Shown here one piece after another: positions 1 through 21,967 of a DNA stretch of 33,649 bases (positions are counted from its first letter, which is position 1; every line of letters begins with the position of its first letter). Made by a program: the position numbers and the translations under genes. The notes beneath the pieces are model-generated. The model was not told the DNA's origin, ran no database searches, and saw only the letters and a list, made by a program, of their open reading frames with translations. The stretch comes from a virus: IMG/VR virus record IMGVR_UViG_3300049218_000114, positions 1 through 33,649 of that record. One strand, given 5' to 3'.

Positions 1-116
1 GCCGGGCAATGCGCCGCCGCCGCCGCCGCCGAGCTGAATTTTTCCCCCGCCGGAAATTTTGCCCCGCTCGCCACCGCCATCACCGGCACAAACACCGCCA
101 AAACCACCCACCGCAT
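1..116 (-). CDS. Host secreted small protein, 5' part (runs off the window)
   Basis: Read on the minus strand, an ATG at 116 opens a frame that stays open to the window edge. It encodes a typical signal peptide: MRW, a hydrophobic core VVLAVFVPVMAVA, then a small-residue cleavage region near ASG-AK. A mature segment with six alanines (the GCC run at 11-30) follows, ending HCPG at the edge. A GGGGGG tract 5 nt before the ATG could serve as ribosome-binding site. The HCPG ending after a lysine/glycine-rich start resembles small secreted alphaproteobacterial proteins with a CPGDTVVW-type motif, but only the first two residues or so of such a motif would be visible, so the family is a guess. It lies outside the prophage end; the insertion falls 11 nt upstream of the start, so its native promoter is probably displaced. 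Confidence 0.5.
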   Translation of the reverse strand, partial: MRWVVLAVFVPVMAVASGAKFPAGEKFSSAAAAAAHCP

Positions 117-127
117 GGCAACCCCCC

Positions 128-134
128 TGTAGCG
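128..134. other. Putative prophage right terminus (attR side, TGTA...)
   Basis: Sequence character changes here: GC-rich coding-like DNA to the left, A/T-tract DNA to the right. Mu-family genomes begin and end with TG...CA, and reading inward from 128 the sequence is TGTAGCG followed at once by two 21-bp direct repeats. The five bases just outside (123-127, CCCCC) would be the 5-bp target duplication. The other end is not in the window, so the duplication cannot be confirmed. All phage genes point towards this end, as expected for the Mu right end. Confidence 0.6.
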
Positions 135-176
135 TGCCACCAAAAATTTGAAAAATGACACCAAATTTTTGAATTT
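135..176. repeat. Two abutting 21-bp direct repeats, likely transposase-binding sites at the phage end
   Basis: Positions 135-155 and 156-176 are head-to-tail copies matching at 15 of 21 positions, sharing TG-CACCAAA and TTTGAA blocks. In Mu the right end carries abutting 22-bp MuA sites R1 and R2 starting a few bases inside the terminus; the geometry here (first copy 7 nt inside the putative TG end, 21-bp period, abutting) is very similar, although the base sequence is unlike Mu's. I infer these are the binding sites of this phage's A transposase, whose gene is outside the window. Confidence 0.55.
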
Positions 177-322
177 CCGAAAATCCGCACGAATCACTAA
201 CCCACATCACCCCCGCCAGCTAACATAACAACCTGAAATCCCGAAATCTGGCCGCTTTACAGGGGATCAAAGCGCCCTCTAAACCCCCTCAAACCGGCGC
301 CTTAAAACCACCCTTAGCGCCC
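177..322. other. Non-coding stretch between truncated transposase and phage end
   Basis: No supportable gene. Just after the transposase stop (minus strand) there are several GGGCGCT repeats at 260-325, and an inverted repeat CGCTTT/AAAGCG with a 10-nt loop at 253-274. That hairpin has no U-tract, so I do not call it a terminator. Confidence 0.5.
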
Positions 323-955
323 TCAGCGCCCGCTAATCAGCAGCTCGGTGCGCTTCGTGTTGATCATTTGCCGCGCCAGCGCCTCAAGATCAGTGCCGGT
401 CATTTTCGCTGCGTCCACAGCTTTGACCTTAACCCGGCCGCCGCGCTCCACTGCTCCGACAACGGAAGTCTTGCTAGTACCGCGCCCACGAGACTTCGGG
501 TCGTTATCATCCTTGCGATTAGTCCGGCGCGGCTTGCCGCCAACATACGCCTCATCCATTTCCACGAGACCGGACAACAACGCGCCATCATCCACAAGCG
601 CGGCGCGAATCCGGTGCATCATCGACCAGACCGTAGGCCGCCGCATTTCCAGATCGCGCGCCGCCTGCATCGCGGAAAGCCCTTTTTTGGCGTTAAGCAT
701 CAGGGAAATCAGCAAAAACCACCGCTGCAAATCAATGTGGCTGTTATGGAAAATCGTGCCAACGGTGGCGGAAAAGGATCGTTCGCATGACCAACATTGC
801 AGCCGATCAAGCTGCGATTTTTCCGCCTTGCGCGCCACTGTATCGGCACCGCAGGCGGGACAGTGAATGCCATTTGGCCAGCGCACTTGCTCCAAATGAG
901 CAATCGCCGCCCCCCTGTCCGGGAAGCGGCGATAAATCTCTACCAATGATGCCAT
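323..955 (-). pseudogene. IS1595-family (ISXO2-like) transposase, C-terminally truncated
   Basis: The 210-residue product begins with the family's N-terminal zinc ribbon (C32-x2-C35 and C54-x2-C57), continues through the helical region around LQRWFLLISLMLNAKKGLSA, and enters the DDE-type nuclease domain at VEMDEAYVGGK, where D134 is the first catalytic aspartate. It stops at LLISGR. Family members run to about 300 residues and carry further acidic/histidine catalytic residues after this point; none is present and no other frame continues the match. It is therefore almost certainly inactive for transposition. ATG at 955 follows the previous gene's stop by 3 nt, so it is co-transcribed with the two genes upstream. 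I could not find inverted terminal repeats. Confidence 0.8.
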
Positions 956-958
956 GGC

Positions 959-1171
959 TTAACCTCTGTTTATTCGAGCGTTTGGGAGCTTACGGGCCAA
1001 TTCTCGCGCCAGCGGGGCGTCTGCCTCGTGTAATTCAGCCCATAAGCGGACGATCCGTGCCACAAGTTCTGGTAATTCGGTCGGCTCAGGGACGCGGATC
1101 ACATTCGCGCTGAGGCTTTGGAGGCGGTCGCCGGGTCTATCCCGGCGACTTCTGTTCGGGTGATTTGTCAC
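959..1171 (-). CDS. Hypothetical protein, 70 aa, right-end cassette
   Basis: GTG start at 1171 overlaps the stop of the upstream gene (GTGA), so the two are translationally coupled. The product is highly charged, with an Arg-rich N-terminus and a helical middle (LPELVARIVRLWAELHEADA). No family recognised, no signal peptide and no membrane segment. It lies between the 124-aa unknown and the truncated transposase, downstream of a strong sigma-70-like promoter, so it may be expressed in the lysogen. An Arg-rich, helix-forming small protein could bind nucleic acid or a protein partner, but nothing in the sequence decides this. Confidence 0.55.
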   Translation of the reverse strand: MTNHPNRSRRDRPGDRLQSLSANVIRVPEPTELPELVARIVRLWAELHEADAPLARELARKLPNARINRG

Positions 1172-1542
1172 TCGTCCTCTTTGCTCGCCGCGACAAAGGC
1201 CCGCGCCTCATCAATCATGCTGTTAATGTCGGGGCCGTAGCCGTTCGGCGCAGGGCCGACATGGGCATACATTTCGACCACGTATGCGTAAAACAATGCG
1301 ATGTTTTCGGCGCGAGCCTGAGCGACCTGGCTCTTGATCCAGTTCGGATGCTGGCCTTCTGTGCTACAGAAAACCTTGAACGCCGCGCCTTCAACGCAAT
1401 CCGGCGTGCCGTCGAGTTCCAGATAGACGTTAAGGTGCTTCTGTGTTTTTGCGTAAATGCGGAGTTTGTCGCTCTTCTGCCAAACACTCGCCTTGATTCC
1501 GAGTTCGCCCGCGAGGGCGATGATGTCGGTTACTGTCGTCAT
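1168..1542 (-). CDS. Hypothetical protein, 124 aa, first gene of the right-end cassette
   Basis: ATG at 1542 has a GGAG ribosome-binding site 7 nt upstream. The product looks like a compact alpha/beta cytoplasmic protein: an N-terminal helix (TDIIALAGELGIKASVW), strands around KLRIYAKTQ and LNVYLELDG, then an Asn/Trp-containing helix (NWIKSQVAQARAENIALFYAYVVEMYAHV) and an acidic tail. It has no transmembrane segment or signal peptide and I recognise no family. It is the first gene after the 1603-1631 promoter and overlaps the next gene by 4 bp. Its position at the phage right end with its own promoter is typical of a moron (a lysogen-expressed cargo gene), for example immunity or exclusion, but function is unknown. 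Confidence 0.65.
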   Translation of the reverse strand: MTTVTDIIALAGELGIKASVWQKSDKLRIYAKTQKHLNVYLELDGTPDCVEGAAFKVFCSTEGQHPNWIKSQVAQARAENIALFYAYVVEMYAHVGPAPNGYGPDINSMIDEARAFVAASKEDE

Positions 1543-1602
1543 GGTCTGTCTCCGCCCCTGATCCCCGAGGCGCGGGCTGAACTAAACCGGCTCAGTGATA
1601 TG

Positions 1603-1631
1603 GATATAGAGGATCAACAGATAGATGTCAA
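1603..1631 (-). promoter_or_regulatory. Near-consensus sigma-70 promoter of the right-end cassette
   Basis: On the minus strand, TTGACA (1631-1626) and TATATC (1608-1603) are separated by exactly 17 bp. Transcription would start near 1596, giving a leader of about 55 nt before the 124-aa gene. It is the only near-perfect housekeeping promoter I found in the window, and it lies in a locally AT-richer patch. It would not need a phage activator, so the cassette may be transcribed in the lysogen. Confidence 0.65.
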
Positions 1632-1771
1632 GCCTTAAAACGTACAATTCCGTAGCATTCATGCGCCACCCCCCCGAGCCGCGCGATGATTCGCGGCGCC
1701 AGCCGCCGCTTGCCGCCCAGGTATGGTGCGGCCGGCTTCACCGGCGCCGCTGGTGCCAATATAGACTCCAC
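1628..1771 (-). pseudogene. Phage DNA adenine methyltransferase (D12/Dam class), N-terminal remnant
   Basis: A GTG at 1771, preceded by GAGGGG, opens a frame with VKPAAPYLGGKRRLAPRIIA, the N-terminal substrate/AdoMet-binding segment of D12-class N6-adenine methylases (GGKR is the conserved core). Homologues next show a histidine/tyrosine pair and then the AdoMet motif EPFVGxGG. Here the frame reaches GGVAHECY and then diverges into GIVRFKA and stops, so the AdoMet motif and the catalytic DPPY are missing. The break falls near 1651, just before the cassette promoter. Mu-like phages often carry a DNA-modification gene at this end; here the incoming cassette appears to have beheaded it. Confidence 0.6.
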
Positions 1772-1891
1772 CGTAATAATCCCCTCAGATACGCCCGCCT
1801 CCGGCCGGAGGTGCGGGGCCGTTAATCCGGTGCGGGCTACAACCCCGCGGCTTGAGCTGTTCCACCAGCTCAACCCCCGCGCTCGGCGGCC
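1772..1891. other. Intergenic hairpin cluster behind the esterase gene
   Basis: Reading the minus strand after the esterase stop: a perfect 8-bp inverted repeat with a 6-nt loop at 1852-1873 (TTGAGCTG...CAGCTCAA), a GCGGG/CCCGC hairpin just after it, and a perfect 14-bp palindrome CCTCCGGCCGGAGG at 1798-1811. None is followed by a U-tract. They may mark the 3' end of the late tail transcript (processing or factor-dependent termination). Confidence 0.4.
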
Positions 1892-3268
1892 TTACGAAAG
1901 CGCAATCCCAAACGTCGCGGACGCGCTTGAACCCGAACCCGTGATCGTCATCGGCGAGCAGATCGGATAATTCCCGTTCCACGCCGCACCCGCCACACTC
2001 GGCAGCGTCATCCCCTCGGCCGCCAGCACCGTCGCAAAATTATCCGTCACCGCGCACCCCCGCCCAATCGGCTGCAAAGGCTGCGCCGCGTTTGCGGCAC
2101 CCTGCGGGTAAAACAGCGTGCACGATGCCGCCGGATTCACTGGCGCGGAGGCCAGCGTGATCTCGATATGCGTTGCATCCACCCGCGCGCACGCCGTCGC
2201 CTGAATCTGCGTCGACGGCGCCCCGGCCGTGCCGCCATCCATGACCGAAAAACCAACCCCTTGTGACGCCAGCAGCGGCACAATCAGATCGTTCCCCGCG
2301 TCGTGTTGAATCGTGCACGTCACCGTCGCGCCCGACAGATGCGCCGCGACGATTTTCGGCCCAATCCCAGCCCCAAGAACAGATGGTATATTCCCGGCCG
2401 GCAATCCCTGGCTCGCCGCGATAATCCGCGCAAACGCCAGGCTGGACCGCCCCGCGAAAATCAAATTCGTGGTGTTATCCACATGCCCGTAAAGGATGCT
2501 CGTGCCGGCCGTCACCAGCCCGGTGGAAGAATTCCAGTTGTCGCCGCGCGTTATGTCATCGCCAGTCTGCTGCAACCCCCACACCATGTTATTCGCCGGG
2601 TCCGCCGCAAGCTCTGCCCAAGCCTCGCGCACCATGGCGTAGCCTTGCGAGCTGCCATACGTCACGCCAAAAATCAAAATCGGTAGCTGCGCCGCCGTCT
2701 TCCCAAATGCTGCGCGAATCTGCGCAAAATCATTCTGGAGCGCGGCCTTATAGACGGGCTTGTCACCGTAACCGAAACCGCCGATCCCGGCATACCCGGT
2801 CCCAGCAAACAAACTGTCCGCCTCACCCCAATCCACCAGCATCCCCAGCGTCGCGGCCTTCTGCCCGCTTGTCAGGGCGTTGATCGCGGCCATCATCGCC
2901 GCACCTTCCCCCGAATAAACCGCCGCCTGCGCCGCCCCCACAGTGTCAGCCGTGTACGTCAGATAACTCCCATACCCGCTTATCCCGCAGTAAACGGCGG
3001 TCCCTTCAACGCAGGACGCCATCTGCCCGGTAATCGCCGGCGTACCCGCACCGCCCAACCACGCCGAAACGCATTCCGCCTGCAACAGCGCAGCACCATC
3101 CGAGAAGGTGAAGAAATTGGAGTTACTCTGCCCGTGCTGAAACAACGCAATCTCGCTCAGCCCACTCGGCTCAATAATTCCGCCGCCGCCCATCGACGTG
3201 GTGCCCAGCAGCAACAACCGCCCGCCCGCCAGAAGCCCCTTTCCGCCAGCCGTCAAAATCGCTGTCAT
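1892..3268 (-). CDS. Putative SGNH-type carbohydrate esterase of the tail tip
   Basis: The 458-aa product has a Gly-rich N-terminus, then ALFQHGQSNS, the block-I motif of SGNH/sialate-O-acetylesterase-type hydrolases (S48 the candidate nucleophile). An alpha/beta segment follows with KTAAQLPILIFGVTYGSS and MVREAWAELAA. Where the family usually has DxxH near the C-terminal side, the best candidate is VDNTTNLIFAGRSS (about residues 265-280), with Asn in place of His, so the triad is uncertain. The last 150 residues are beta-rich and Thr/Ala-rich. ATG at 3268 shares one base with the fibre's stop. Deacetylation of host surface polysaccharide during adsorption fits its place among tail-fibre genes. 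Activity is inference. Confidence 0.55.
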   Translation of the reverse strand: MTAILTAGGKGLLAGGRLLLLGTTSMGGGGIIEPSGLSEIALFQHGQSNSNFFTFSDGAALLQAECVSAWLGGAGTPAITGQMASCVEGTAVYCGISGYGSYLTYTADTVGAAQAAVYSGEGAAMMAAINALTSGQKAATLGMLVDWGEADSLFAGTGYAGIGGFGYGDKPVYKAALQNDFAQIRAAFGKTAAQLPILIFGVTYGSSQGYAMVREAWAELAADPANNMVWGLQQTGDDITRGDNWNSSTGLVTAGTSILYGHVDNTTNLIFAGRSSLAFARIIAASQGLPAGNIPSVLGAGIGPKIVAAHLSGATVTCTIQHDAGNDLIVPLLASQGVGFSVMDGGTAGAPSTQIQATACARVDATHIEITLASAPVNPAASCTLFYPQGAANAAQPLQPIGRGCAVTDNFATVLAAEGMTLPSVAGAAWNGNYPICSPMTITGSGSSASATFGIALS

Positions 3269-5457
3269 CAGGTCACCGTCACCGCCTGGCTGACAAACAC
3301 GCCCATCAGCGTCCCCGTGCCACCTGGGCCAGAGTAAATCGCCAATTTCCCGTAGAAGGTGCCAGCCGCCGCCGGTGCAACGCCTGGGTTAAATGAAAAC
3401 ACCACACCGCCTGGCGTCCCGGCTGATGTGTTTACCGTGCCGGACGCAACGCTCCCAGCACTCGACGATGTGTTGCTGGCGGACGTGTCAAACCAGAACA
3501 CCGCCGATTCCACGCTCCCGCTATTGGTGCCGCCAAAGTACAGACCCGGCTGAACTTCCGCGCCATGCGCCACCGGCGTTCCGAGGTTTACATCCCCCGC
3601 GCTCCACGGCGAGAATGATAGGCCAGACCCGGCATCAGCGCCCGAAGACGGGCCGGAGCCGCTGATATACGTCCAGGTCAATGCCGAGCCAGGCGCAGCG
3701 CCCACCGTCACCGCCCCGCTCACCGCCGTCACCGCCGTATCCGCCGTCAGCTCCGCCCAGAGGTAGAACGTTCCGGCGGCCGAAGGTGTGAGTGAAGCCG
3801 TCCACCCCGTGCCGCTCACCGTCGCCGCCGTCCAGCTCGTCGGCGCCACCGTGGCGCTGCTGGAAAGCCCCACATTCACCGCCGCCCCGCTCGGCGCCAG
3901 CGTGCCAGCCAGGTTCAACGCCGTGCCCACCGTGCCCGTGCTGGGCGGCGAGGTAATCGTCACCGCCGAAGCCGTAACGGTAATCACCCCGCTCACCGCG
4001 GTGATCGCCGAATTGCCCGTCTGCTCTGCCCACAAATAGAACGTCCCGGCCGCGCTCGGTGTAACCGAACCGCTCCACGTCCCGCTTGTAACCGTCGCCG
4101 CCGTCCAGCTGCTCGGCGGCACCGTCGCACTGCTGGAAAGCCCAATCTGCACTGCCGTGCCGCTCGGCGATACCGTGCCGCTGGCGGAAAGCCCAAAGCC
4201 GGTAGAACCACTGGACGGCGCGGAGGTAATCGCCACCGCCGCCGTATAAACGCTCACCGCCCCGCTCACCGCCTGCACCGCGGTATTTGCCGTCTGCCGC
4301 GCCCAAACATAATAAGTCCCGGCCGTGCCCTCGGTAATCGAGGCCGTGAACCCGGTCCCGCTCACCGTCGCGGCCGCCCAGCCGGTGGAAGGCGCCGCGG
4401 TGGCCGAATTGCCAATCGCCACCTGCACCGCCGTGCCGGATGGCCCCACGGACCCCACAATCCCAATCGCCGCCCCCACTGCGTAGCTGTTCGCCACCGT
4501 GCCCACAGACAAGCCGGAGCCGGTCAACGCCCCCGCCCCGCCACTGATGCTGGCATAATACCCATTCCCGCCCGAATAGGTGTAGCTGGTCAATTCCGCG
4601 CCCTGGCCTACAGGAATCGTCTGCACCCCGCTGGACGTAACAATCCCGCCCCCCAGCGTCACCACGCCGGACGAAAGATTGAGTATCTGGCACGTCAGCC
4701 CGGACCCCAGAAACGTCACCGGCGGCGATATCGTCACCGGCTGCGAGCAGATCAAAATCTTGTCGTTATGGACTGACCCATCCAGCGCCAGATTCGCCGT
4801 CACCTCAATCACGCCAGTCCGCAGCTGCGGCACCTGCGTCGCAAAATACGTCCACATGGCTGACAGTGTCTGCAACAACGCCGCGCCACCCTGCAACGTA
4901 ATCACCGTATCCGTCGCGGCCGCCGCCGCGGCAGCACTCAGCGCCGAAACATTGGTGCCGACGTCCGAAAGAAAATTAGAAACCTCAATCTGCGCCGGCG
5001 TCCCGCCAATCACCGCGACGATAAAATCCGTCAGCGCCATCGACGAATCCTGCGGCAGCGAAACAAGGTTCGCGGCGCTCCCCGCCGGCCCCTGCGCGCC
5101 CGTCGCACCCGCGGCGCCCGTCGCACCAGCCGGCCCCTGCGCGCCGGCAGCCCCCGCCGGCCCTACCAGCGAAAGCCCGGTCGAGGGCCAGGCGCCCCCC
5201 GTCTTCGGCCCAAAAAACACCACCGAGCCGCCATTAACCTCGAAATAAAAATCGCCGTTATTCCCGGTCGACTCGCTCGGCGGCGTCACCCCGCTCCAGA
5301 TCGTCGCCCCGGCACTCGCCGTCGCCATCGCGATCAGCGCCGAAATCAGCACCGCGCCGTTCTTCAGCCCGGTGCCGGCGGCCGGGTCCATCACCGGTAT
5401 CAGCATCCGCCCCGCCGGCTGGAATTGCGTCAGCGCTGATATCGGGTCCGAGGCCAT
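3268..5457 (-). CDS. Large tail fibre with collagen-like stretch and three Ig-like repeats
   Basis: 729 residues. The N-terminal 100 residues probably attach to the baseplate. Residues about 99-127 are a Gly-x-y collagen-like run (GPAGAAGAQGPAGATG...), which would trimerise. A helical/beta linker follows, then from about residue 312 three similar modules of roughly 90 residues, each with SGTAVQ/SGAAVN, SSATV-PSSWTAATV and AAGTFYLWAE signatures, likely Ig-like beta sandwiches. The C-terminal 140 residues (from ALTWTYISG) look like a distinct head domain, FSPWSAGDVNLGTP to the end, probably the receptor-binding part. The gene has no chaperone gene next to it, but is directly followed by the putative esterase. 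It is the longest protein in the window. Confidence 0.75.
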   Translation of the reverse strand: MASDPISALTQFQPAGRMLIPVMDPAAGTGLKNGAVLISALIAMATASAGATIWSGVTPPSESTGNNGDFYFEVNGGSVVFFGPKTGGAWPSTGLSLVGPAGAAGAQGPAGATGAAGATGAQGPAGSAANLVSLPQDSSMALTDFIVAVIGGTPAQIEVSNFLSDVGTNVSALSAAAAAAATDTVITLQGGAALLQTLSAMWTYFATQVPQLRTGVIEVTANLALDGSVHNDKILICSQPVTISPPVTFLGSGLTCQILNLSSGVVTLGGGIVTSSGVQTIPVGQGAELTSYTYSGGNGYYASISGGAGALTGSGLSVGTVANSYAVGAAIGIVGSVGPSGTAVQVAIGNSATAAPSTGWAAATVSGTGFTASITEGTAGTYYVWARQTANTAVQAVSGAVSVYTAAVAITSAPSSGSTGFGLSASGTVSPSGTAVQIGLSSSATVPPSSWTAATVTSGTWSGSVTPSAAGTFYLWAEQTGNSAITAVSGVITVTASAVTITSPPSTGTVGTALNLAGTLAPSGAAVNVGLSSSATVAPTSWTAATVSGTGWTASLTPSAAGTFYLWAELTADTAVTAVSGAVTVGAAPGSALTWTYISGSGPSSGADAGSGLSFSPWSAGDVNLGTPVAHGAEVQPGLYFGGTNSGSVESAVFWFDTSASNTSSSAGSVASGTVNTSAGTPGGVVFSFNPGVAPAAAGTFYGKLAIYSGPGGTGTLMGVFVSQAVTVT
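3697..4515 (-). repeat. Three tandem ~270-bp repeats inside the tail fibre gene
   Basis: Three consecutive units of about 270 bp (roughly 4515-4241, 4240-3968 and 3967-3697) encode the Ig-like modules. Blocks for SGAVTV/SGVITV and TSWTAATV are nearly identical between the second and third units, while the first unit is the most diverged (YYVWARQT instead of FYLWAE). Such repeats can gain or lose units by recombination and change fibre length. Confidence 0.75.
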
Positions 5458-5458
5458 C

Positions 5459-5743
5459 TTATTGCTCCATCAGGAGCACGCCGGCCCCGTCTTCCAGCAG
5501 CAACACGCCGCCGGCATCCTCAAGTCCAAAAGCGCACTGCCCTGGCGGCGCGGTAAACTGCACCCAGGTCAAAACCCCATTCACGTCCTGTAAATCCCAC
5601 GTCTGCCCAGGGCTGGACGCCAGCGGATAAACCGGTACCCCGGCCGGCAATGTCACGCCACCGCTCGCCACGATACTCACGCTCGGCCCCAGATCGTTCT
5701 GGGTAACGCTGACACTCGCGGGCAGGGAAATCGTCCCGCTCAC
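5459..5743 (-). CDS. Small tail-associated protein with C-terminal LEDG repeats
   Basis: GTG at 5743 overlaps the previous stop (GTGA) and the stop is 1 nt before the fibre start, so it is coupled to both. The 94-aa product is beta-rich, begins SGTISLPASVSVTQNDLGPS, and ends with two copies of a short unit, LEDAGGVLL and LEDGAGVLL, then MEQ. Family unknown; the context (between the 116-aa tail protein and the fibre) suggests a minor tail or fibre-attachment protein. Confidence 0.6.
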   Translation of the reverse strand: MSGTISLPASVSVTQNDLGPSVSIVASGGVTLPAGVPVYPLASSPGQTWDLQDVNGVLTWVQFTAPPGQCAFGLEDAGGVLLLEDGAGVLLMEQ

Positions 5744-6090
5744 GACGCCACCGGATCAAACGGCGCCGGGCCAGGCAGCAGTTGCGTTATCGCATGGTCG
5801 ACATAAATCCCGACGGTCTGCGAAAGGCTCTGCGGCCCACCCGCCGGCTGCACCAGGACATCCATGCGCAACAGCCCCTCCGGCCAGGCGGAGGTATCCT
5901 GCACGTAAAGCGAAGCCAGCCCCGGCGTCATCGTCGCCAACGGCGTCACCGTCGCCACCAAATTCTCCTCCGCATCCCGCACATGCGCCAGCAGCGTCAC
6001 GCCAGAAAGCCCATAGGCGCTGCCATCCGCATTCGAAAATGCCAGGGTGAGAGAAAGCGTCGCCCCGCGCTTGATGCGAACGGCGCTCAT
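5740..6090 (-). CDS. Tail-associated beta-sandwich protein, 116 aa (unknown family)
   Basis: Start chosen at ATG 6090, which overlaps the fibre stop in an ATGA; the longer reading to 6111 lies inside the upstream gene. The product has alternating strands (KRGATLSLTLAFSNADGSAY, VTLLAHVRDAEENLVATVT, LLRMDVLVQPAGG) typical of a small beta-sandwich, and no membrane or signal segment. Similar short proteins sit between the fibre and downstream host-range genes in many Mu-like and P2-like tails. Function is not known; a structural role at the tail tip is inferred from position. Confidence 0.6.
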   Translation of the reverse strand: MSAVRIKRGATLSLTLAFSNADGSAYGLSGVTLLAHVRDAEENLVATVTPLATMTPGLASLYVQDTSAWPEGLLRMDVLVQPAGGPQSLSQTVGIYVDHAITQLLPGPAPFDPVAS

Positions 6091-7046
6091 CAGAACTCGT
6101 ACCCACTGCACGCGATGTAGTTCTGAGGACCGCTCGTCAAGCTAATAGCAATATAATATGCCTGCTGTGATCCTTTGATAATTGGAAAATTGGAAAATTC
6201 GTAGCCCAGGTTTGCGATTGAGGACGAGATATTAAATCCCACAACTTGCAGGCCGACGCCAGATGAAGTGCTTGCTAATTGGACATCGCACGCCGTAGCC
6301 GCAGCCCCTGAAAGATTTATGGACCCCGAGAAGCTTATGGCATTCTTAGGAATGTTTGTTATCGAAAACGCCGTTAAAGAGGCGGCGTTGGGCAGGCTCG
6401 AAACGACATTCACTTGAGAGATTGAGACCCGGCGTCCATTCTGGAGTCCGACCGCAAACCGGCCGCTGCTATCAGTCGGCCACACGCTTACCAGCGCGGA
6501 ATACGCGTACCCCGCCGGCATGTACGCGCCACCATAAACCTCCGGCGCGACGACCCCGGTCGCATCTTGCGCCAGCAGCCCCGCTGCACCCGTCGTCGGA
6601 TTATAAATCGCATAAATCGCCACAAAGCTGGAATGCGGCGCGCTTCCGGTATCCATCCCGCCGGCGCCGGTCGTCGCCAGATTCAGCGGCTCATTGAAAG
6701 CCCCAATCTTGCAGGAAAATCCACCAAGCGATTTCGAAACGATTAGCTCATCAGCTGTGAACGCAACGGTCGTCCCGGCCGCCGCCACATTCATCGCGGC
6801 ATTCCGCGCCGTGCCCACAAGCGCGCCGGCATACATCAGCCCCAGCGCAATCTCCAGCTGGTTCTGCACACCGGCCGTCGGCACCAGCCCGGCCGCCTCA
6901 ATAATCCCGTGGACCAGCTCCTCCTGCAGATCATTCATATAGGTCGCATTGATCTGCGTACCTGGAATGCCGCCCAGAAGGTTCTTATTCACCCATTGCC
7001 GGATGCCGCCGATAAGCTGAGTGCCAACGCTGTTAATCCGGTCCAT
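6090..7046 (-). CDS. Tail fibre protein, 318 aa, with compositionally foreign C-terminus
   Basis: It follows the gp48-like gene by 3 nt, the position of the Mu S tail-fibre gene. The N-terminal 70 residues (RINSVGTQLIGGIRQWVNKN, then NATYMNDLQEELVHGI) match the baseplate-binding start seen in many phage fibres. The middle has Gly-rich segments such as VYGGAYMPAGYAYSALVSVW. Residues from about 190 on are beta-rich and Ser/Asn/Ile-rich, and the DNA coding them (about 6093-6480) is clearly more AT-rich than its surroundings, pointing to a swapped receptor-binding tip. I recognise no enzymatic motif. Confidence 0.7.
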   Translation of the reverse strand: MDRINSVGTQLIGGIRQWVNKNLLGGIPGTQINATYMNDLQEELVHGIIEAAGLVPTAGVQNQLEIALGLMYAGALVGTARNAAMNVAAAGTTVAFTADELIVSKSLGGFSCKIGAFNEPLNLATTGAGGMDTGSAPHSSFVAIYAIYNPTTGAAGLLAQDATGVVAPEVYGGAYMPAGYAYSALVSVWPTDSSGRFAVGLQNGRRVSISQVNVVSSLPNAASLTAFSITNIPKNAISFSGSINLSGAAATACDVQLASTSSGVGLQVVGFNISSSIANLGYEFSNFPIIKGSQQAYYIAISLTSGPQNYIACSGYEF

Positions 7047-7049
7047 CGC

Positions 7050-7604
7050 TCACCCCGTGTAACTGAAAACAGGCTGCGTATGCGCCGGCGCGTCGGCCGT
7101 GATCAGTGCCTGCACCGCATTACCGGTAAACATGCCAGCGCTCGATGCCGGCATCGTCACCAGCCATGAAAATTCCTGTGGCGAGCAGGAAATCGCATCC
7201 CCGCACACCGCGTTACCACATTCCCATATCGGCTGGTCAGCCACCGTAATGGTCAACCCTATCGCCGCCGCCTGCGCCTCGAAATACCCGGCCGATGCAC
7301 CACCCGTCGCCGTCCACCGCTGCAACGCCAGCGCCTGTTCCTGCGCCGTCGTCAGCGTCACCGCATCTCGCCCATAAGGGTCCGGCCCCAGCACGCGGAT
7401 ATAATCCGGCAACAGATAATTCGCGGCACCCGGATCAACCTCAACCAGCATCTCCTCGGCATAGCCTTCAAACCTGGAAATCTCGGCCGCCAACGGCGCC
7501 AGCCATTGCGGCCACATCGCACCCGGCACATTCCCCGGCACGGCACACCCCGGCGGATCAATCTGTAAAAGCTCGCTCAAAACAGTGGCCTGGCTGCGGC
7601 TCAT
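7050..7604 (-). CDS. Mu gp48-like baseplate/tail protein (DUF2313)
   Basis: The 184-aa product has the family layout: an N-terminal VLSELLQIDPPG segment, LAAEISRFEGYAEEMLVEVDPGAANYLLPDY, then VTLTTAQEQALALQRWTATGGASAGYFEAQAAAIG and a cysteine-containing IWECGNAVCGD loop. DUF2313/YmfQ-type proteins follow the J-like baseplate protein in Mu and lambda-like tails and help assemble the baseplate hub periphery. ATG at 7604 overlaps the gp47 stop by 4 nt. Confidence 0.8.
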   Translation of the reverse strand: MSRSQATVLSELLQIDPPGCAVPGNVPGAMWPQWLAPLAAEISRFEGYAEEMLVEVDPGAANYLLPDYIRVLGPDPYGRDAVTLTTAQEQALALQRWTATGGASAGYFEAQAAAIGLTITVADQPIWECGNAVCGDAISCSPQEFSWLVTMPASSAGMFTGNAVQALITADAPAHTQPVFSYTG

Positions 7605-8707
7605 ACGAAGGTCACCGTGCCCAGCGTGTTAATCGCAAGCTGGCTCGGCGCCGCCACATCCGCCGAAGGCACGCTCAGCACGTAGGACGTCAAACCCGCA
7701 GTGCTGGCAACCGCGTTTTCCAAACTCGCAAACGTCGTCGTGCTCCCAATCGTCGCGTTCTGCTGAAACGATAGCGCAAGTGCTGCCGTCGCCGCCGTCC
7801 GCAGCGCCGGCGTATCCGGCACCAGGTGCAGCGTGACCGCAATCGGGTTCAGCGTGCACGCCAGCACCACCGGCACCGCCGTCACGGGCTTGATTGAAGG
7901 CTCGTTGAGATACGCCTGCACCGTCGCCACCTGCCCGCTGGTCGGCACCGCTGGCCCCGCCATGGCAAACACCACGCCCACGTTCGGCAGGCCGCCATAG
8001 CCGGAGATAACATTCACATCCGCGACACCCACCAGTGCGGCCTTCGTCCACGTCTCATAGTCGTTAACGCTGCCGCCCATCGCCGGCAGCCGGATGCGCG
8101 CCAGAATGCGCGAGCGCCAGCTCGACGTGCTCTCCAAATCCACGCCGCCGGTAATGCCGTTCGAATCCACAACGCCGGTCTGCGACGTCAAACCGGAAAC
8201 CGGCGTCGTCACCGTCAAATTCGTCCCGGCCGCCAGGTTCCCGCCCGTCCCCGCCGGGGTTGCCACCACCGGCACGCTGATCGTCCCGCCGGACTCAATC
8301 GTGCCGCCGGCCGTACTTTCATAGGTGATGTTTGTGCCTGGATAACTCAGCACAATTTCACTCGGCACCACATCGCCCACGGTGCCCGTCAGGATAACAT
8401 TCCCCTCGGCCGCGGCCGCCTGGTCCTGCGGCACACCCCAGATCGAGCCAAATCGTGACAGGTTGTTCACGGCCGTATCCGGCATCAGCTCAACCGCGAT
8501 ATTGCCCTGGTAATAATACAGATCGAGCATCGCCATTTCGGTCACGCGGCAATTCACCGTCGCCACCGTATTCGGGTTGCGCGCATCAATCCCCGTCAGC
8601 CCCAGCGCCGGGTTCGGCGGAAACACCGCCTCGTAAACCGCGGCGCACCGCCCCGCTATATCGCCAGGTGCCGGTATCGGCCAGGTCGTGCCAACCGTCG
8701 CGCTCAT
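7601..8707 (-). CDS. Mu gp47-like baseplate J protein
   Basis: 368 aa, about the usual length for baseplate J-like proteins that form the baseplate wedge. Visible features are the N-terminal DIAGRCAAVYEAVFPPNPALG, the central PSEIVLSYPGTNITYESTAGG beta domain, LESTSSWRSRILARIRLPAMGGSVNDYETWTKAALVGVADVNVISGYGG (the conserved J core), and a C-terminal domain ending in SLENAVASTAGLTSYVLSVPS. It overlaps gp46 and gp48 genes by 4 nt at each side, so translation is coupled. Confidence 0.88.
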   Translation of the reverse strand: MSATVGTTWPIPAPGDIAGRCAAVYEAVFPPNPALGLTGIDARNPNTVATVNCRVTEMAMLDLYYYQGNIAVELMPDTAVNNLSRFGSIWGVPQDQAAAAEGNVILTGTVGDVVPSEIVLSYPGTNITYESTAGGTIESGGTISVPVVATPAGTGGNLAAGTNLTVTTPVSGLTSQTGVVDSNGITGGVDLESTSSWRSRILARIRLPAMGGSVNDYETWTKAALVGVADVNVISGYGGLPNVGVVFAMAGPAVPTSGQVATVQAYLNEPSIKPVTAVPVVLACTLNPIAVTLHLVPDTPALRTAATAALALSFQQNATIGSTTTFASLENAVASTAGLTSYVLSVPSADVAAPSQLAINTLGTVTFV

Positions 8708-9162
8708 CCGCCCACACTCTGCGAAAGCTCAACCACCGTATTTCCCGCCTGCACCCGGTAGCCGAGTATCTGCGGCGCCACCCACCGCACCAGCACCGTC
8801 AGCGCGAAGCCCCGCACGGTTTCGAGCCACTGCACCGCCTGCGCGACCGCTTGCTCAACCCCCTGCCGCGTCTCCTCATCCGCCAGCGCCCGGTCATAAA
8901 GCCACAACCGGCTGCCCGTAAGCTGCCCCGTAGCGTCAAGCGCATCACCCGGATAACCCCGCCTGGCCGTCACACTCACCGGCTCGCTCCAATCCGGCAC
9001 CAAAACCGGCAGAACATCACCAGCCTGCGCCCGCCGGTCCGCCAGCAGGCTCATCAGCATCGCGGAAGCCGGCGTGTTATCGACGGCAAAATCGGTTCCG
9101 GCCGCATTCAGCGCGATATCGCAACAGCGCAAAGCCGGGTTATATTGCAAGGCTATATCCAT
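8704..9162 (-). CDS. Mu gp46-like baseplate wedge protein (gp25/GP46 family)
   Basis: 152 aa with the family's N-terminal DIALQYNPALRCCDIALNAAGTDFAVDNTPASAMLMSLLADRRA, a proline-rich bridge and a helical region (VEQAVAQAVQWLETVRGFALTVLV) before the closing beta segment. These proteins are the gp25/lysozyme-like wedge components of contractile tails. It is the first gene after the 58-nt gap that holds one copy of the late palindrome; its ATG at 9162 has no Shine-Dalgarno and lies 43.5 nt from the palindrome centre, suggesting it is the first, possibly leaderless, gene of the last late operon. Confidence 0.82.
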   Translation of the reverse strand: MDIALQYNPALRCCDIALNAAGTDFAVDNTPASAMLMSLLADRRAQAGDVLPVLVPDWSEPVSVTARRGYPGDALDATGQLTGSRLWLYDRALADEETRQGVEQAVAQAVQWLETVRGFALTVLVRWVAPQILGYRVQAGNTVVELSQSVGG

Positions 9163-9217
9163 GCTGGCAGCATCCGCGCGCGCGCAACGCCCCGCACGCT
9201 AGACATGTCTAGCGCCG
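9163..9217 (-). promoter_or_regulatory. Putative late promoter 1 with palindrome CGCTAGACATGTCTAGCG (9197-9214)
   Basis: The 18-bp perfect palindrome is centred at 9205.5 within a 25-bp block (9193-9217) identical at the two other sites. Downstream, a GGATGCT element puts its AT 32.5 bp from the centre, as at the other two sites. ATG 9162 lies 43.5 nt from the centre. No ribosome-binding site precedes it. The region is the gap between the gp45-like and gp46-like genes; Mu's PP promoter is a few genes earlier, before P. Confidence 0.65.
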
Positions 9218-9220
9218 CAC

Positions 9221-9760
9221 TCATTCAGGGTCCGGCGCGGACGGTGTCGCTCCGCCGGTCCCATGCCCAACATGCTGATTGTAATGCCCGCGCAGCCGGT
9301 CCAGGCTGCCATGGCTGTCCGAAAGCGTGCCTGTCGTCGCCAGGTTCCCATTCACGGTCACATTGCCATCCAGCGCGATGTTGGTAGCGTTCACCGTGAC
9401 GTTAGCGCCCCAGATTTCCACAGCACCCGGCCGCACCTTCACCCGCGTCCCGTCGCCCGCGTAAATCACCGCCTCGCCAGCCGCCAGCCCGCCAAACCGC
9501 GCCGATGGATTGCCCAGCGGCAGCACCATCAAATTCCCCGCATCGCCGCCGATCTGGATCACAATCCCAATCGCCCCATCCGCCGGCGGCACGGATGAAA
9601 AGCCAAACGGCCACGCCACCTCCACATCCGCCCGGTTCACATCCGTGCCGGTCGAAAGATTCGCCGTCTGCGCCTGCCCCGAATCATTGACGGATGAAAC
9701 CACCCCCAGCGCCAGCAGGCTCCGCAAATTCCCCACCGCCTGGCGCAGCATATGCATCAT
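9221..9760 (-). CDS. Mu gp45-like baseplate spike protein (phage baseplate assembly V family)
   Basis: Product about 180 aa. The characteristic spike-protein core is visible: MLRQAVGNLRSLLALGVVSSV, then VEVAWPFGFSSVPPADGAIGIVIQIGGD, LPLGNPSARFGGLAAGEAVIYAGDGTRVKVRPGAVEIWG and a repetitive beta-helix-like tail, NVTVNATNIALDGNVTVNGN, ending in PSAPDPE. I start at ATG 9760; a GTG at 9808 would add MDGRFRGHDGMARVGA, which is the translation of a palindromic repeat and looks spurious. The spike protein punctures the outer membrane at the tip of the contractile tail. It lies between P (gp44-like) and the late palindrome, so it is the last gene of the preceding operon. Confidence 0.82.
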   Translation of the reverse strand: MMHMLRQAVGNLRSLLALGVVSSVNDSGQAQTANLSTGTDVNRADVEVAWPFGFSSVPPADGAIGIVIQIGGDAGNLMVLPLGNPSARFGGLAAGEAVIYAGDGTRVKVRPGAVEIWGANVTVNATNIALDGNVTVNGNLATTGTLSDSHGSLDRLRGHYNQHVGHGTGGATPSAPDPE

Positions 9761-9776
9761 CGCGCCCACCCGCGCC

Positions 9777-9808
9777 ATCCCGTCATGGCCGCGAAAGCGG
9801 CCATCCAC
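9777..9808. repeat. REP-like palindromic repeat, copy 1
   Basis: ATGGCCGC/GCGGCCAT form a perfect 8-bp stem with a GAAA loop (9785-9804) flanked by CCCGTC and CCACG. A second copy with the same flanks lies at 11276-11307. Translated, these give the DGRFRGHDG-type peptides that are scattered through many proteobacterial genomes as dispersed repeats. Its overlap with the 5' end of the gp45-like gene explains the apparent N-terminal extension there. Confidence 0.65.
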
Positions 9809-9830
9809 GCCTTCCTTGCTTGCTTAAACA

Positions 9831-11066
9831 TCAACCATTCCGCGTCGGCCCAAAACTCTTCGGCCGCCTCCCAACAATATACCGCGGGTCATCCGCCGGC
9901 TCGTCAATCCGGTCGAACGCGGTGCGTCCCGCCAGCTCCAGCTGCGTCCACTCGCCGCTCTGGTCGTACCGGTAACTCACGCCGGAAATCAGCCAGTCCT
10001 TATCGGTGCCGATAAACGCATCTGTTACGCGCGAGAGCGCATTCGGCAGCCACAGCGCATTTTTGCTCCCAGCCCGCCAATCCATCACCTTCAGCTGCAA
10101 CGTCTCGCCCATGCCTTTGGCAATTCTTAAGCCCCAATCCGCCTGCGCCTGCACGCTCGCCGCGCCACTCTGCGTTTTCACCTGCCGCACCGTCGGCCGG
10201 TAGCGCGTCACCTCCGGGTCACTCACATGCCCGGTCATGATCGCACTCACGCTCTCCGTGGTCGTCGCCGTGGTGCTGGTCTCCGCCGGAAACGTCAGGC
10301 CATCGCGCGGGTCCGTCGCATCCACGATCAGCGGCACCTGGCTCTTGCGCGCCACCGTCCGGTTCGTCTGTCCCTTCACGTAGTAATCCGAAAACCGCTC
10401 CGCAAAACTGGATTTTATGCCGCCGCCCCAAATATTCCCCGGCCTGGTCAGCGGCGCCGGCGCCCGGCTGGAGCCACCTTGCGTCAACAACAATCCACCC
10501 ACGCCGTTGCTCACCGCCAGCAGCGCATTCTGCCGGCACGCCTTCTCAATGGCGCTCATCGCCAGCTCATCAACATCGATTCCGAATACCGGGAACGCCG
10601 CCCCCACATCCACATCGGCCGTCACTGGAATTCCAAACGGCTTCGCAATCGCCTGCGCAATTTGCAGCGTATTTAAGCCCCGCCACTCCACCGGCCCATT
10701 CGGTGAGGCCGCGCAATCCACCAGGTCACAAGTCGCATCCCGCCCGGTGATGGTGCAGGTGAGCTGATCGCCCTCCCAGCTCGCATCCACCTCATCGATC
10801 CAGCCTTTCAGAACCATCGTGCCATCCAGCGTCACGCTGCACGGCATTCCGGCGCTTACGACACCTATGATCGGTTGCGGGTCCAGGTCCAGATCAAAAG
10901 CCAGCGCCTCCCGCCCGCTATCCCGGTACGTCACTGAAAAACTTCCAGCGATATCCCGCAGATTCCGGTCCACCTGCACGCTAACCCACCGGCTGATCAC
11001 AGCCCCGGAAACCGACAAACTCAACCGCCGCGTCGCCCTCGCCGCTGCCGGAATCCCCCCGCTCAT
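9831..11066 (-). CDS. Mu P (gp44)-like baseplate hub protein
   Basis: Start chosen at ATG 11066 (ATGA overlap with the upstream gene); the product is 411 aa. Visible family features: SVSGAVISRWVSVQVDRNLRDIAGSFSVTYRD at the N-terminus, WEGDQLTCTITGRDATCDLVDCAASP, LNTLQIAQAIAKPFGIPVTADVDVG, and a C-terminal WLISGVSYRYDQSGEWTQLELAGR. Mu gp44 is a trimeric hub related to late-control D proteins; it binds the spike (gp45) and tape-measure end. Preceded by three small genes of unknown role. Confidence 0.85.
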   Translation of the reverse strand: MSGGIPAAARATRRLSLSVSGAVISRWVSVQVDRNLRDIAGSFSVTYRDSGREALAFDLDLDPQPIIGVVSAGMPCSVTLDGTMVLKGWIDEVDASWEGDQLTCTITGRDATCDLVDCAASPNGPVEWRGLNTLQIAQAIAKPFGIPVTADVDVGAAFPVFGIDVDELAMSAIEKACRQNALLAVSNGVGGLLLTQGGSSRAPAPLTRPGNIWGGGIKSSFAERFSDYYVKGQTNRTVARKSQVPLIVDATDPRDGLTFPAETSTTATTTESVSAIMTGHVSDPEVTRYRPTVRQVKTQSGAASVQAQADWGLRIAKGMGETLQLKVMDWRAGSKNALWLPNALSRVTDAFIGTDKDWLISGVSYRYDQSGEWTQLELAGRTAFDRIDEPADDPRYIVGRRPKSFGPTRNG

Positions 11067-11263
11067 GCCGCGATGTTCCTGTTGTAATAGGCCCACTGCC
11101 GCTCACGGGCGCGATTCAACTCAACCCGGCGCTTCGCCGCAGCCACCAGAATTTTCAGATCCTGCGAGTCGATGCACCGCCGGATCGCCTGGCCACAATC
11201 AAGGCAGCAAACGTTGCCGCGATCATCCACCCAAATCAGATCATGCGGGCATAACGCGCTCAC
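11063..11263 (-). CDS. Small zinc-ribbon-like protein, 66 aa
   Basis: GTG at 11263 overlaps the previous stop (GTGA); its own stop overlaps the P start. CPHD near the N-terminus and CLDC at about residues 20-23 form two cysteine pairs suited to binding zinc (C5, C20/C23 with nearby H7), followed by a basic helix, LVAAAKRRVELNRARERQWAYYNR. It is the third of three small genes between N and P. Function unknown; similar short CxxC proteins occur in accessory positions of Mu-like phages. Confidence 0.6.
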   Translation of the reverse strand: MSALCPHDLIWVDDRGNVCCLDCGQAIRRCIDSQDLKILVAAAKRRVELNRARERQWAYYNRNIAA

Positions 11264-11496
11264 GGCGCCACAACCCCGTCATGCCCGCGTATGCGGGCAT
11301 CCACGACTTCTTTCTGATCGCGCGACCGATTAATCCGAGCCTGAATCGCAATCGAATGCTCGCCAAGAACCGTGCAGAATTCGCACAGCGGCTCGCGCCC
11401 TTGAAACGCGAAAGAGATAACGTGCGAGCCACACTGCATGCATTCAAACTCCGCTGTCCCATCCTTCCGGCGCAGCGCGACCATATCGGCACTCAT
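11260..11496 (-). CDS. Small zinc-ribbon protein, 78 aa, C-terminus formed by a palindromic repeat
   Basis: ATG 11496 overlaps the stop of the 61-aa gene (ATGA), and its TGA overlaps the next GTG. CMQC and CEFC (about residues 19-22 and 37-40) make a classic CxxC...CxxC zinc ribbon, followed by a helix, LGEHSIAIQARINRSRDQ. The last 15 residues, VVDARIRGHDGVVAP, are encoded by the REP-like repeat at 11276-11307, so the original end of the protein was probably different. Unknown function. Confidence 0.6.
   Translation of the reverse strand: MSADMVALRRKDGTAEFECMQCGSHVISFAFQGREPLCEFCTVLGEHSIAIQARINRSRDQKEVVDARIRGHDGVVAP
11276..11307. repeat. REP-like palindromic repeat, copy 2
   Basis: ATGCCCGC/GCGGGCAT form a perfect 8-bp stem around a GTAT loop (11281-11300). 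Flanks (CCCGTC before, CCACG after) match copy 1 at 9777. The fourth stem pair is C-G here and G-C in copy 1: a compensatory double change, so structure rather than sequence is conserved. It falls within the 3' end of the 78-aa zinc-ribbon gene. Confidence 0.65.
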
Positions 11497-11678
11497 GCTT
11501 CGCGCCAGATGCGTTTCACCAACGACGCTACGGCGGCAAAAGCCTCACAACCAGCATCGATCACCGCCTCGACCTGCGCATTGGTCGGCTGAGGGCCGCC
11601 AGCAGCATCAATCTCGTGAAACAATTTCTTCGCCGCACGCTTCAGATTATCTAAACTGTCCATTTTGTCCCCGCTCAT
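11493..11678 (-). CDS. Hypothetical protein, 61 aa
   Basis: ATG 11678 overlaps the N-gene stop by 4 nt (a second ATG, 5 codons in, is possible). The product is a helical, acidic/basic protein: LDNLKRAAKKLFHEIDAAGG, then TNAQVEAVIDAGCEAFAAVASLVKRIW. No domain recognised, no membrane segment of normal length. Co-translated with two zinc-ribbon genes between N and P. Confidence 0.55.
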   Translation of the reverse strand: MSGDKMDSLDNLKRAAKKLFHEIDAAGGPQPTNAQVEAVIDAGCEAFAAVASLVKRIWREA

Positions 11679-12952
11679 TGATTCAAAACCTCCAACGCCC
11701 CCGGCGGTACCAGCGCCGGGTGCACAACCTGGTTGCGCGCAATCAAATCCTGGTACGTCGCGAAAACCTCGCCCGGCGTGTCGCCCGAAATATATTGCGC
11801 CAGCACCCAGGCCGGCAGCGTCGCGCGGGTGGTGATCGTCACCACCGCCGGCAGCCGGCCGATCTGCGCATTCAAATCCGCCGCTAAAGCGGATTTAAGG
11901 CTCACCAAAGCCCGCCATACGGGTGCCGCATTCGCCGGGTCAGTCTGCGCCTGCGCCCCCGCCGCCACGGCCGCCGCGTCAATCGCGGCAAACAATGTCG
12001 CCCCCTCCGCCTCGGCCGCCTGCTGGCTGTCATAGCTGATACCGCTCGCCGCCCGCACCGCGCTCGCCACCAGCAGCGCGGTCATCGCCGCACCCATCGC
12101 CAGCCCCGGCGCCGGCGTGCGAGCAGCCACCGTGGCGCCCGCCACGGCCGCCAGCAGCGTGCTTGCGGTATCCGCCGGGTCCGCGGCCGCGGCCGCCGCC
12201 ACCGCCCCGCCGGGCGCCACGGCGGACGGCACCGTGGGCGTGCACGCCCCCGCAATCGCCGCCGGTACCGCAACCATCGCCGCCGCCGTATTGCCCGCCC
12301 AGCCGCTCGCCGCGCCGGTGATCGTATCCGCCAGCCCGGCAATCGCGCTGGTGGACGCCGCCAGAATCGCCGGGCCGGAAACGGTGCTGGAAATCGCCGT
12401 CTCAACCACCCCGGTCAAATTCGTCAGATACCCCTGCGCGTAGCTCAGCGCACCGGTCAGCTCGGCAATCGGCGCCAGCGCATTGGCCAGCCAATTCTGC
12501 GCCTGCGCGGTCACCGCATCGCACGCCGTCTCCAACTGGGTCAGCGTATCCAGCCCGGCCGAGGCCGAAGGGTTGTACGGGTAAAGCTGCATCTCAAACC
12601 GCGCCACCCGCAGCTCATTCGCCGCCAGGGAAAAGCGCGGCCGGGACCCCGGCACGAAAATTACCTGCAAACTGCGCAGCCACGGATGCACCAGCGTATA
12701 CGGCCCCGGCTGCCGGCACGCCGCCTGCATCGTTTTCATCTGGGCAACGTAATCATCACCCACCATCAGCCCGCGCAGCGCAATCGGCCCGTCATCCGCG
12801 CCCAGGTCCTGGTAGCTGGCGTCATCAATCCCCGGAAACACAAACCGCTGCACCCGCCGCCCGGTTTCCTGGGAGGTATCGATCACCGCAAACGGCACCC
12901 CCGCAAACGTCGCCTGCAACAGCGTGTTATAGAGGCCTTGGATATCGATCAT
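11675..12952 (-). CDS. Mu N (gp43)-like DNA circularisation/tail protein
   Basis: 425 aa. The N-terminal half shows the family core: YNTLLQATFAGVPFAVIDTSQETGRRVQRFVFPGIDD, QDLGADDGPIALRGLMVGDDYV, then LVHPWLRSLQVIFVPG and ELRVARFEMQLYPYNP. The C-terminal half is Ala-rich and helical, ending with YISGDTPGEVFATYQDLIARNQV and ALEVLNQ. In Mu, N forms part of the tail/baseplate hub and protects injected DNA ends. ATG at 12952 overlaps the tape-measure stop by 4 nt. Confidence 0.85.
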   Translation of the reverse strand: MIDIQGLYNTLLQATFAGVPFAVIDTSQETGRRVQRFVFPGIDDASYQDLGADDGPIALRGLMVGDDYVAQMKTMQAACRQPGPYTLVHPWLRSLQVIFVPGSRPRFSLAANELRVARFEMQLYPYNPSASAGLDTLTQLETACDAVTAQAQNWLANALAPIAELTGALSYAQGYLTNLTGVVETAISSTVSGPAILAASTSAIAGLADTITGAASGWAGNTAAAMVAVPAAIAGACTPTVPSAVAPGGAVAAAAAADPADTASTLLAAVAGATVAARTPAPGLAMGAAMTALLVASAVRAASGISYDSQQAAEAEGATLFAAIDAAAVAAGAQAQTDPANAAPVWRALVSLKSALAADLNAQIGRLPAVVTITTRATLPAWVLAQYISGDTPGEVFATYQDLIARNQVVHPALVPPGALEVLNQ

Positions 12953-14670: not shown

Positions 14671-14671
14671 C

Positions 14672-15255
14672 TCAGCCTCCCTTCAATCGCTCGTTCAGCC
14701 GGTGCGCGGCGGCATTCCAGAACCGCACCTGGTCAAGCCCCATCGCCTCAATCTCGGAAATCGGCGTGTTGTAATACCGCGCCAGCCCGGCCAGAATTAC
14801 CGGCCAGTCTTCCGGCCAGGCGTCGTAAAAAAACGCACCACGATCAGCGCGGCCGCGATATCCGAAGCATCCATCGCATCATGCACCAGCCGCGCCCGCC
14901 CCAGCGACATCCCCGTCGAGCTCGCAATCATCTGCGGCCGGAAATCATCGCCCGTCGCCTGCGCAATCTCCCGCTGCGCCTTGCCGTTCAACCGCTTCAA
15001 ATGCAGGCTCGGATATTTCTCTTCCGTCACCGCCCCGGCCGCATCGCGGAAGCGCAGCGTCACCGGGTAATCCAGCGTCAGCACAAAGCTGCCATCGCCC
15101 TGCGCCAACGCATTTTCCGGGAAGTCCGGCGGCAGCACCGGCGCTCGTGACGTCACCGTGCCGCCGCCCTCTTCCAGCACCGGAAGCGCCGCCGAAACCG
15201 GTGCCGAATCAATCTTGTCCGGGTCATTGAAAACCACCACGTTATCAATACCCAT
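14672..15255 (-). CDS. Tail assembly chaperone frameshift product (gp41-42'-like)
   Basis: A -1 slip at TTTTTTT (14833-14827) would join ALIVVRFF to a second frame that is open from 14827 to the TGA at 14672-14674. This adds 51 residues beginning YDAWPEDWPVILAGLARYY and including PISEIEAMGLDQVRFWNAAA, the Trp/Met-Leu-Asp pattern of the short T (GpE-like) partner in tail chaperone pairs. Mu, lambda and P2 make the long chaperone the same way. The extension has no plausible start codon of its own near its beginning and ends 1 nt before the tape-measure ATG, which supports a frameshift over an independent gene. Confidence 0.8.
14797..15255 (-). CDS. Mu gp41-like tail assembly chaperone, short form
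   Basis: Start at ATG 15255, 1 nt after the tube stop; product 152 aa. An Asp/Pro-rich N-terminus (DNVVVFNDPDKIDSAPV) leads into FVLTLDYPVTLRFRDAAG, then KYPSLHLKRLNGKAQREIAQATGDDFRPQMIASSTGMSLGRARLVHDAMDASD, the helical core of phage tail chaperones. The zero frame ends at TTPGRKTGR 10 codons after the slippery run. It binds the tape measure during tail assembly and is absent from virions, as known for the family. Confidence 0.8.
   Translation of the reverse strand: MGIDNVVVFNDPDKIDSAPVSAALPVLEEGGGTVTSRAPVLPPDFPENALAQGDGSFVLTLDYPVTLRFRDAAGAVTEEKYPSLHLKRLNGKAQREIAQATGDDFRPQMIASSTGMSLGRARLVHDAMDASDIAAALIVVRFFTTPGRKTGR
14827..14833 (-). promoter_or_regulatory. Programmed -1 ribosomal frameshift slippery site TTTTTTT
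   Basis: In the zero frame the run reads CGT TTT TTT ACG, i.e. a T-TTT-TTT heptamer in the right phase for simultaneous -1 slippage of both tRNAs. The -1 frame then reads TAC GAC GCC TGG and stays open for 51 codons. A GC-rich segment with CTGGCCGG and CCGGCCAG-like elements follows and could form the stimulatory structure. Confidence 0.78.
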
Positions 15256-15256
15256 G

Positions 15257-15634: not shown

Positions 15635-15643
15635 GTTCCTGCC

Positions 15644-17155: not shown

Positions 17156-17158
17156 GGT

Positions 17159-18427: not shown

Positions 18428-18429
18428 GG

Positions 18430-18657: not shown

Positions 18658-18681
18658 GATACCCTGGATGGTTCGAGAAAC

Positions 18682-18705: not shown

Positions 18706-18722
18706 CACATCATTCAGCCGCC

Positions 18723-19628: not shown

Positions 19629-19630
19629 GA

Positions 19631-21052: not shown

Positions 21053-21079
21053 AAACATTTTTCGGCCAGGTTGTGCAAG

Positions 21080-21966: not shown

Positions 21967-21967
21967 T

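Follow-up and report, generated by a model that had tools for sequence, protein, structure and literature searches.

The window analyzed here, a linear viral contig of 33,649 bases from IMG/VR, very probably includes the right terminus of a Mu-like transposable phage, which we place at position 128 on the strength of its sequence and that of its relatives. The terminal TG, CA on the other strand, would represent the strand-transfer end, the two repeats just inside it (R1 and R2) would be MuA-type sites acting with an inverted L1 site at the left end, and the CCCCC just outside is the predicted target-site duplication. We take 128 to be the phage/host boundary because a weight matrix derived from relatives alone selects both repeats, the ends of relatives correspond to it, 5-bp duplications adjoin those ends, joining the flanks of relatives restores reading frames, and the flank of the window is host-like.

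Gene content of the contig

Mu-type phage genes, from the tail fibre to GemA, extend over 1653..33473 on the minus strand, with Pfam and PHROG matches including Mu gpT, Mu-like_Pro, Portal_Mu, Phage_Mu_F, Mu Gp27, Gp45, GP46, GpP, Baseplate_J and GemA. Read from right to left, these head, tail and early genes follow the order seen in Mu, which places the contig among the Mu-like phages. GemA (33024-33473, minus strand) and a regulator with a weak, below cut-off match to Mor (32605-33090, minus strand) are followed by lysozyme, a Mu Gp27-type small terminase, the large terminase, Portal_Mu, Phage_Mu_F, a Mu-like protease, the gpT head protein, sheath, tape measure, DNA_circ_N, GpP, Gp45, GP46, Baseplate_J and the tail fibre. 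The record carries neither transposase genes nor a left end, both being off its high-coordinate side, and the link of the window to a MuA therefore runs via its relatives. Rfam gave no matches in the window, and positions 100-330 showed no DNA similarity among phage records.

The right end and its two repeats

The initial annotation had described TGTAGCG at 128 followed by two abutting 21-bp repeats identical at 15 of 21 positions, and the letters are as it had them. TGTAGCG occupies 128..134 on the plus strand, with the TG at 128-129; the left ends of relatives likewise start with TG. The first and second predicted transposase-type binding sites, R1 (135..155) and R2 (156..176), abut in the same orientation on the plus strand, and the predicted copy of the duplication, CCCCC (123..127, with no strand assigned), is part of a run of six C at 122-127.

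By itself, the 15/21 identity of the repeats is weak evidence for transposase sites. The window has nine merged places where abutting 21-bp repeats reach at least 15/21 identity, several lying in repetitive coding sequence, against a mean of 0.57 in 30 Markov copies, while the 58-bp stretch itself has a P of 0.0035 under a local Markov model. The motif CACCAAANNTTTGAA, with up to two mismatches, is found at only two places in the window, namely the two repeats, where shuffling predicts 0.30. The decisive check on the repeats is the ranking given by a weight matrix based on 12 sites taken from relatives, with the window left out, and scored on both strands: the sites at 135 (29.4) and 156 (22.0) are the top two of the entire window, the next best scoring 17.2, and the same matrix applied to 40 Markov copies yields a best score of 21.7 and a mean of 13.4.

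Corresponding ends in related phages

The head protein of the window has counterparts of 61-80% identity in six viral contigs. Five of these, together with two contigs sharing only the insertion-sequence transposase described below, formed the set searched for MuA, and Mu-transpos_C was found in four of the seven. The two MuA proteins of relatives that were scanned possess both Mu DNA-binding domains, DDE_2 and Mu-transpos_C; MuB was found in the one relative examined for it, and the MuA of G008 matches the solved Mu transposase chain 4fcy (2.2e-94). An alignment of MuA from four relatives led to 44 genome loci and the best 80 of 152 viral-contig loci. The first matrix used for locating ends in the relatives, which included the two sites of the window, identified left ends in G005, G008, G009, G010 and L107, more weakly in L104 and L113, and right ends in G005, G008, G009 and G010. 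G005 (head protein 61% identical) has both its left end, TGTGCGGTGACACCAATAATTTGA, and its right end, TGTAGCGCGCCGCCAATAATTTGATTTTTGTCGCCAATAATTTGA, on a single contig. An inverted L1-type site is present at the left ends of G005, G008, G009 and G010; the paired same-orientation sites of a right end are seen in the window as R1-R2, and the inverted left site is known only from the relatives.

TGTAGC or TGCAGC opens the right end in all seven relatives in which it was located, with base 7 differing in G012 and G016; the right end of G011 was looked for and not found. Over the first 50 bases the window agrees with G008 at 42 positions, G010 at 41, G005 at 35, G009 at 27, G012 and G016 at 26 each, Mu at 23 and G013 at 21, the value for G009 being so low because of one extra base between R1 and R2. 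The window has an R1-R2 spacing of 21, as do G005, G008 and G010; in G009, G012, G013, G016 and Mu it is 22. G009 (L060; JAKBBM010000066.1, 1-11810) is a deleted prophage, with both ends and the duplication intact and the genes between transposase and baseplate missing.

Pattern searches of the viral contigs gave five matches to TGNNGCGNNNCACCAAANNTTTGAA, none followed by a second repeat and all taken as chance. The two-repeat pattern matched twice, once at the end of G005 and once in L057, inside genes of an A/T-rich 125-kb contig, the latter also being taken as chance; a further end-anchored pattern had G005 as its sole match. A separate peculiarity is seen in L164, which has two left ends in inverted orientation near the contig end (3-38, minus strand, and 191-226, plus strand), perhaps an assembly fold-back.

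Target-site duplications and the probable host flank

Five identical bases are found outside the TG and CA in five of six left/right pairs of relatives, namely GCGGT in G008, CCGGT in G009, GCCGG in G012, ACGTG in G013 and GGGGT in G016. In G008 and G009 both ends had been placed before the flanks were inspected; in G012, G013 and G016 the duplication itself was used in finding the right end, which was accepted because it starts with TGTAGC and continues into two repeats. The flanks of G005 are unlike (GCCAT left versus GCGTT right) and show no duplication, none was obtained for G011, and the contig of G010 starts exactly at TGTAGCG, so that its right flank is missing. When the flanks of G009 are joined so that a single copy of the duplication remains, the frame is open again and gives a continuous Hint_2 match (E 2.6e-17, profile 18-109); in G008 the same operation reopens a frame with a YHS match (E 7.5e-6, below the Pfam cut-off). 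The window has a flank on record at its right end only, and the evidence for its duplication comes from these pairs. Taken together, the homologous right ends in four close relatives, the inverted related site at the left ends of relatives and the 5-bp duplications uphold the earlier proposal of a right end, a phage/host boundary and transposase-site geometry at this position.

Outside the end, 1..116 on the minus strand reads as the start of a host-type secreted protein gene that runs off the record (ATG at 116-114; MRWVVLAVFVPVMAVASGAKFPAGEKFSSAAAAAAHCP). Similar stretches, ADQKFSTASAAAAHCP in a small protein of G212 (E 0.005) and EFNSVAAAAEHCP in one of G009 (E 0.9), stand before HCP in both. 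Matches to the flank protein were found in 6 of 12 genomes at E up to 1 and in 3 of 200 at E up to 0.05. The signal is weak but consistent, and suggests that these 116 bases may be the start of a secreted host protein. As the six C at 122-127 are just upstream of the ATG, the insertion would sit near the gene start. A search for an empty site of the window's own host locus found none, the 116-base flank giving weak protein matches only.

In Mu, the transposase MuA occupies its end sites and brings the two ends together, then frees the 3' ends at the terminal CA and attaches them to target strands at points separated by 5 bp (PMC3362531 and PMC3562280); the stagger is 5 bp in Mu and 6 in phage B3 (PMC8705779 and PMC3562280). 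By the same scheme, a MuA-type transposase of the phage would bind R1 and R2 as two same-orientation sites, synapse the two ends through these and the inverted L1 at the far left end, cut at the terminal TG/CA (128-129), the strand-transfer end, and join the ends to target DNA at positions 5 bp apart, whereby the host bases just outside, predicted to be CCCCC, would be repeated outside the left end. We infer the binding by MuA, the window's own duplication and its activity from this correspondence.

An insertion-sequence remnant inside the right end

A decayed IS1595-type element occupies the cargo region at the right end, between the tail genes and the phage terminus, and seems to have taken the place of most of a D12 methylase gene. 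The remnant (341..1652, minus strand; Pfam DDE_Tnp_IS1595 and Zn_ribbon_IS1595) retains an N-terminal part of the transposase and a passenger ORF at 1168-1542. Toward the phage end it extends to about 341-351; on the other side the homology to insertion sequences stops at 1652 and phage homology begins at 1653. Most homologues of the transposase match no further than about residue 205, and those of L002, L003 and L005 run to 293-302 aa. The codons at 323..355 on the minus strand (KRTELLISG..) look like the last ones of a gene for a D12-class adenine methylase, judging from L060, where the methylase ends GKRVTELLISG; the D12 methylase gene is whole in this phage (G009).

Alternative explanations

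The transposase of this remnant (323-955) is the gene nearest to the repeats, which might therefore mark the end of the insertion sequence lying just inside rather than that of the phage. This is most improbable, given that the insertion-sequence homology ends at the limits just described, that the motif, with up to two mismatches, occurs in none of 33 loci with related transposases, that G005, G008, G009 and G010 share the end of the window, and that the duplications found are of 5 bp and adjoin MuA-bearing elements. We regard it as equally far-fetched that the repeats are chance or low-complexity A/T-rich intergenic sequence and the phage end lies elsewhere: the nine places with abutting 15/21 repeats show that such pairs are not rare in the window, but the relatives-only matrix puts both repeats on top, and 41-42 of 50 bases are common to the ends of G008, fixed by its duplication, and G010, whose contig breaks there.

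A further possibility concerns the flank alone, and we give it appreciable weight without favoring it, namely that the end is real and 1-127 is virion-packaged or chimeric host DNA instead of a stable prophage junction, CCCCC then belonging to one of many insertions. Host DNA is described at the ends of Mu-type virions in PMC4406740 and PMC5557969, the flanks of G005 disagree, and the record is a viral contig; on the other side, G008, G009, G012 and G013 are in genome assemblies with matching duplications, which does not decide the matter. As Mu virions carry host DNA (PMC4406740), the contig alone cannot tell a prophage from packaged virion DNA. This alternative is compatible with a Mu-like right terminus at 128, which remains our preferred interpretation, and bears only on the word prophage.

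Other conserved signals at the ends

The pentamer CTAAC occurs on the plus strand at bases 70 (197..201) and 93 (220..224) from the right end, and this pair, 23 bp apart, is conserved in all five right ends of the clade (the window, G005, G008, G009 and G010). It is absent as a pair from the right ends of G012, G013, G016 and Mu, with G016 having CTAAC at +93. A GTTAG pair, 12-13 bp apart, is seen about 466-535 bp inside the left end in seven of the eight left ends examined.

At the left end, four GGGA at exactly +28, +38, +48 and +58 from the TG are shared by six of eight left ends examined; L111 (G016) has the four at +29 to +59, and L104 has three of them. A census covered 124 MuA loci (44 genome loci and the best 80 of 152 viral-contig loci), some being duplicates of one phage, of which 86 had at least 2,500 bases upstream. 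A four-GGGA array with a 10-bp pitch was found upstream, within 8 kb, in 41 of these 86 without mismatch, in 52 with up to one and in 59 with up to two, while the remaining 3.16 million bases of the same loci gave a single match at up to one mismatch, this being the second, inverted left-end copy of L164. Arrays are seen at 152-185 in L054, 6202-6235 in L059, 154-187 in L060, 112-145 in L061 and, with one mismatch, 33-66 in phage Mu (L205). Fourteen other phage left regions were compared, and in just four of them is a TG end visible at the start of the record: in PhiR68_1 and Vibrio 1.028.O the array is present with two mismatches, and the Sinorhizobium phages StopSmel and Aussie lack it. Stray two-mismatch matches were also seen in L209 and L222.

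The array falls where we take the packaging site of Mu to be, at 32-54 of the left end, a site with which a 1985 paper by Groenen and van de Putte reportedly deals, and it is a candidate packaging signal. More broadly, Mu-type ends may carry more conserved, end-specific signals than the transposase sites: in this clade a rewritten site (about CRCCAWWAATTTGA, with a 21-bp pitch) and CTAAC-N18-CTAAC at +70/+93 of the right end, and a left GGGA array, shared with Mu, that might serve as a packaging signal recognized by the small terminase of the Gp27 type, with each GGGA one helical turn from the next. We advance this composite proposal tentatively, as possible rather than probable.

Palindromes in the late operons

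A perfect 16-bp palindrome, GCTAGACATGTCTAGC, occurs three times in the window (9198-9213, 21033-21048 and 32594-32609), each copy being approximately 35 bases before the likely start of a gene leading a gene group, respectively those for GP46, the protease and lysozyme. G004 and G005 have their own, different palindromes, GCTGACATATGTCAGC and GCTAAACCGGTTTAGC, also three times each and in matching places, preceding a lysis-type gene (identified by eye in G004), the protease gene and a tail or baseplate gene at a distance of about 35 bases, with 56 in one case. A search of 13 other relatives' loci for repeated palindromes of the form GCT..AGC found none. These phage-specific palindromes are candidate operators for the late activator.

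Implications and comparison with Mu and other transposable phages

With the terminus at 128, the phage/host boundary is fixed to the base in a metagenomic contig, and the combination of TGTAGC, paired sites and a 5-bp duplication offers a usable rule for the exact ends of many uncultured Mu-like phages. The variation of the sites beside an enzyme that is still Mu-like provides a data set on specificity change in the transposase family, and, were the GGGA array a packaging signal, a poorly defined part of Mu biology would become testable.

The arrangement of the end is ordinary for a Mu-like phage, and it is the site sequence that is locally rewritten. The right end of phage Mu (R1-R2, NC_000929.1) shares with the window the terminal TG, a CAC beginning 10 bases inside the end, two abutting sites in the same orientation and the frame CACnAAAA....GAAA. 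The geometry of Mu R1-R2 claimed by the initial annotation accordingly holds for the position of the CAC but not for the spacing of the sites, which is 21 in the window versus 22 in the Mu record. Its further claim of a sequence different from that of Mu is borne out in the core after the A run, CGCG in Mu R1 versus TTTG in the window, and in the overall agreement of only 23/50 bases, but the two are not unrelated, as 18 of the 27 terminal bases are identical (shuffle P 5e-5 for the 25 after TG); from this agreement the site of the window is predicted to be a diverged MuA-type site.

The closest counterparts are G008 (JAJZCG010000001.1), G009 (JAKBBM010000066.1), G010 (PLSD01000062.1, an Acetobacteraceae MAG) and the viral contig G005, which share TG(T/C)AGCG, an R1 and R2 close to CRCCAWWAATTWGA and the CTAAC pair at +70/+93, and differ in having 27-42 of 50 bases identical to the window and, in G009, the 22-bp spacing. 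G012 (Pseudoroseomonas cervicalis), G013 and G016 resemble the window in a TGTAGC right end with two repeats, accompanied in these three by a 5-bp duplication, but have another site sequence, a 22-bp spacing and no CTAAC pair. Burkholderia phage KS10 is alike in that its predicted transposase sites are direct repeats, with those on the left inverted relative to those on the right (PMC2628397); it differs in that these are 15-nt repeats described as unlike those of Mu, and the available text of PMC2628397 reports no flanking duplication.
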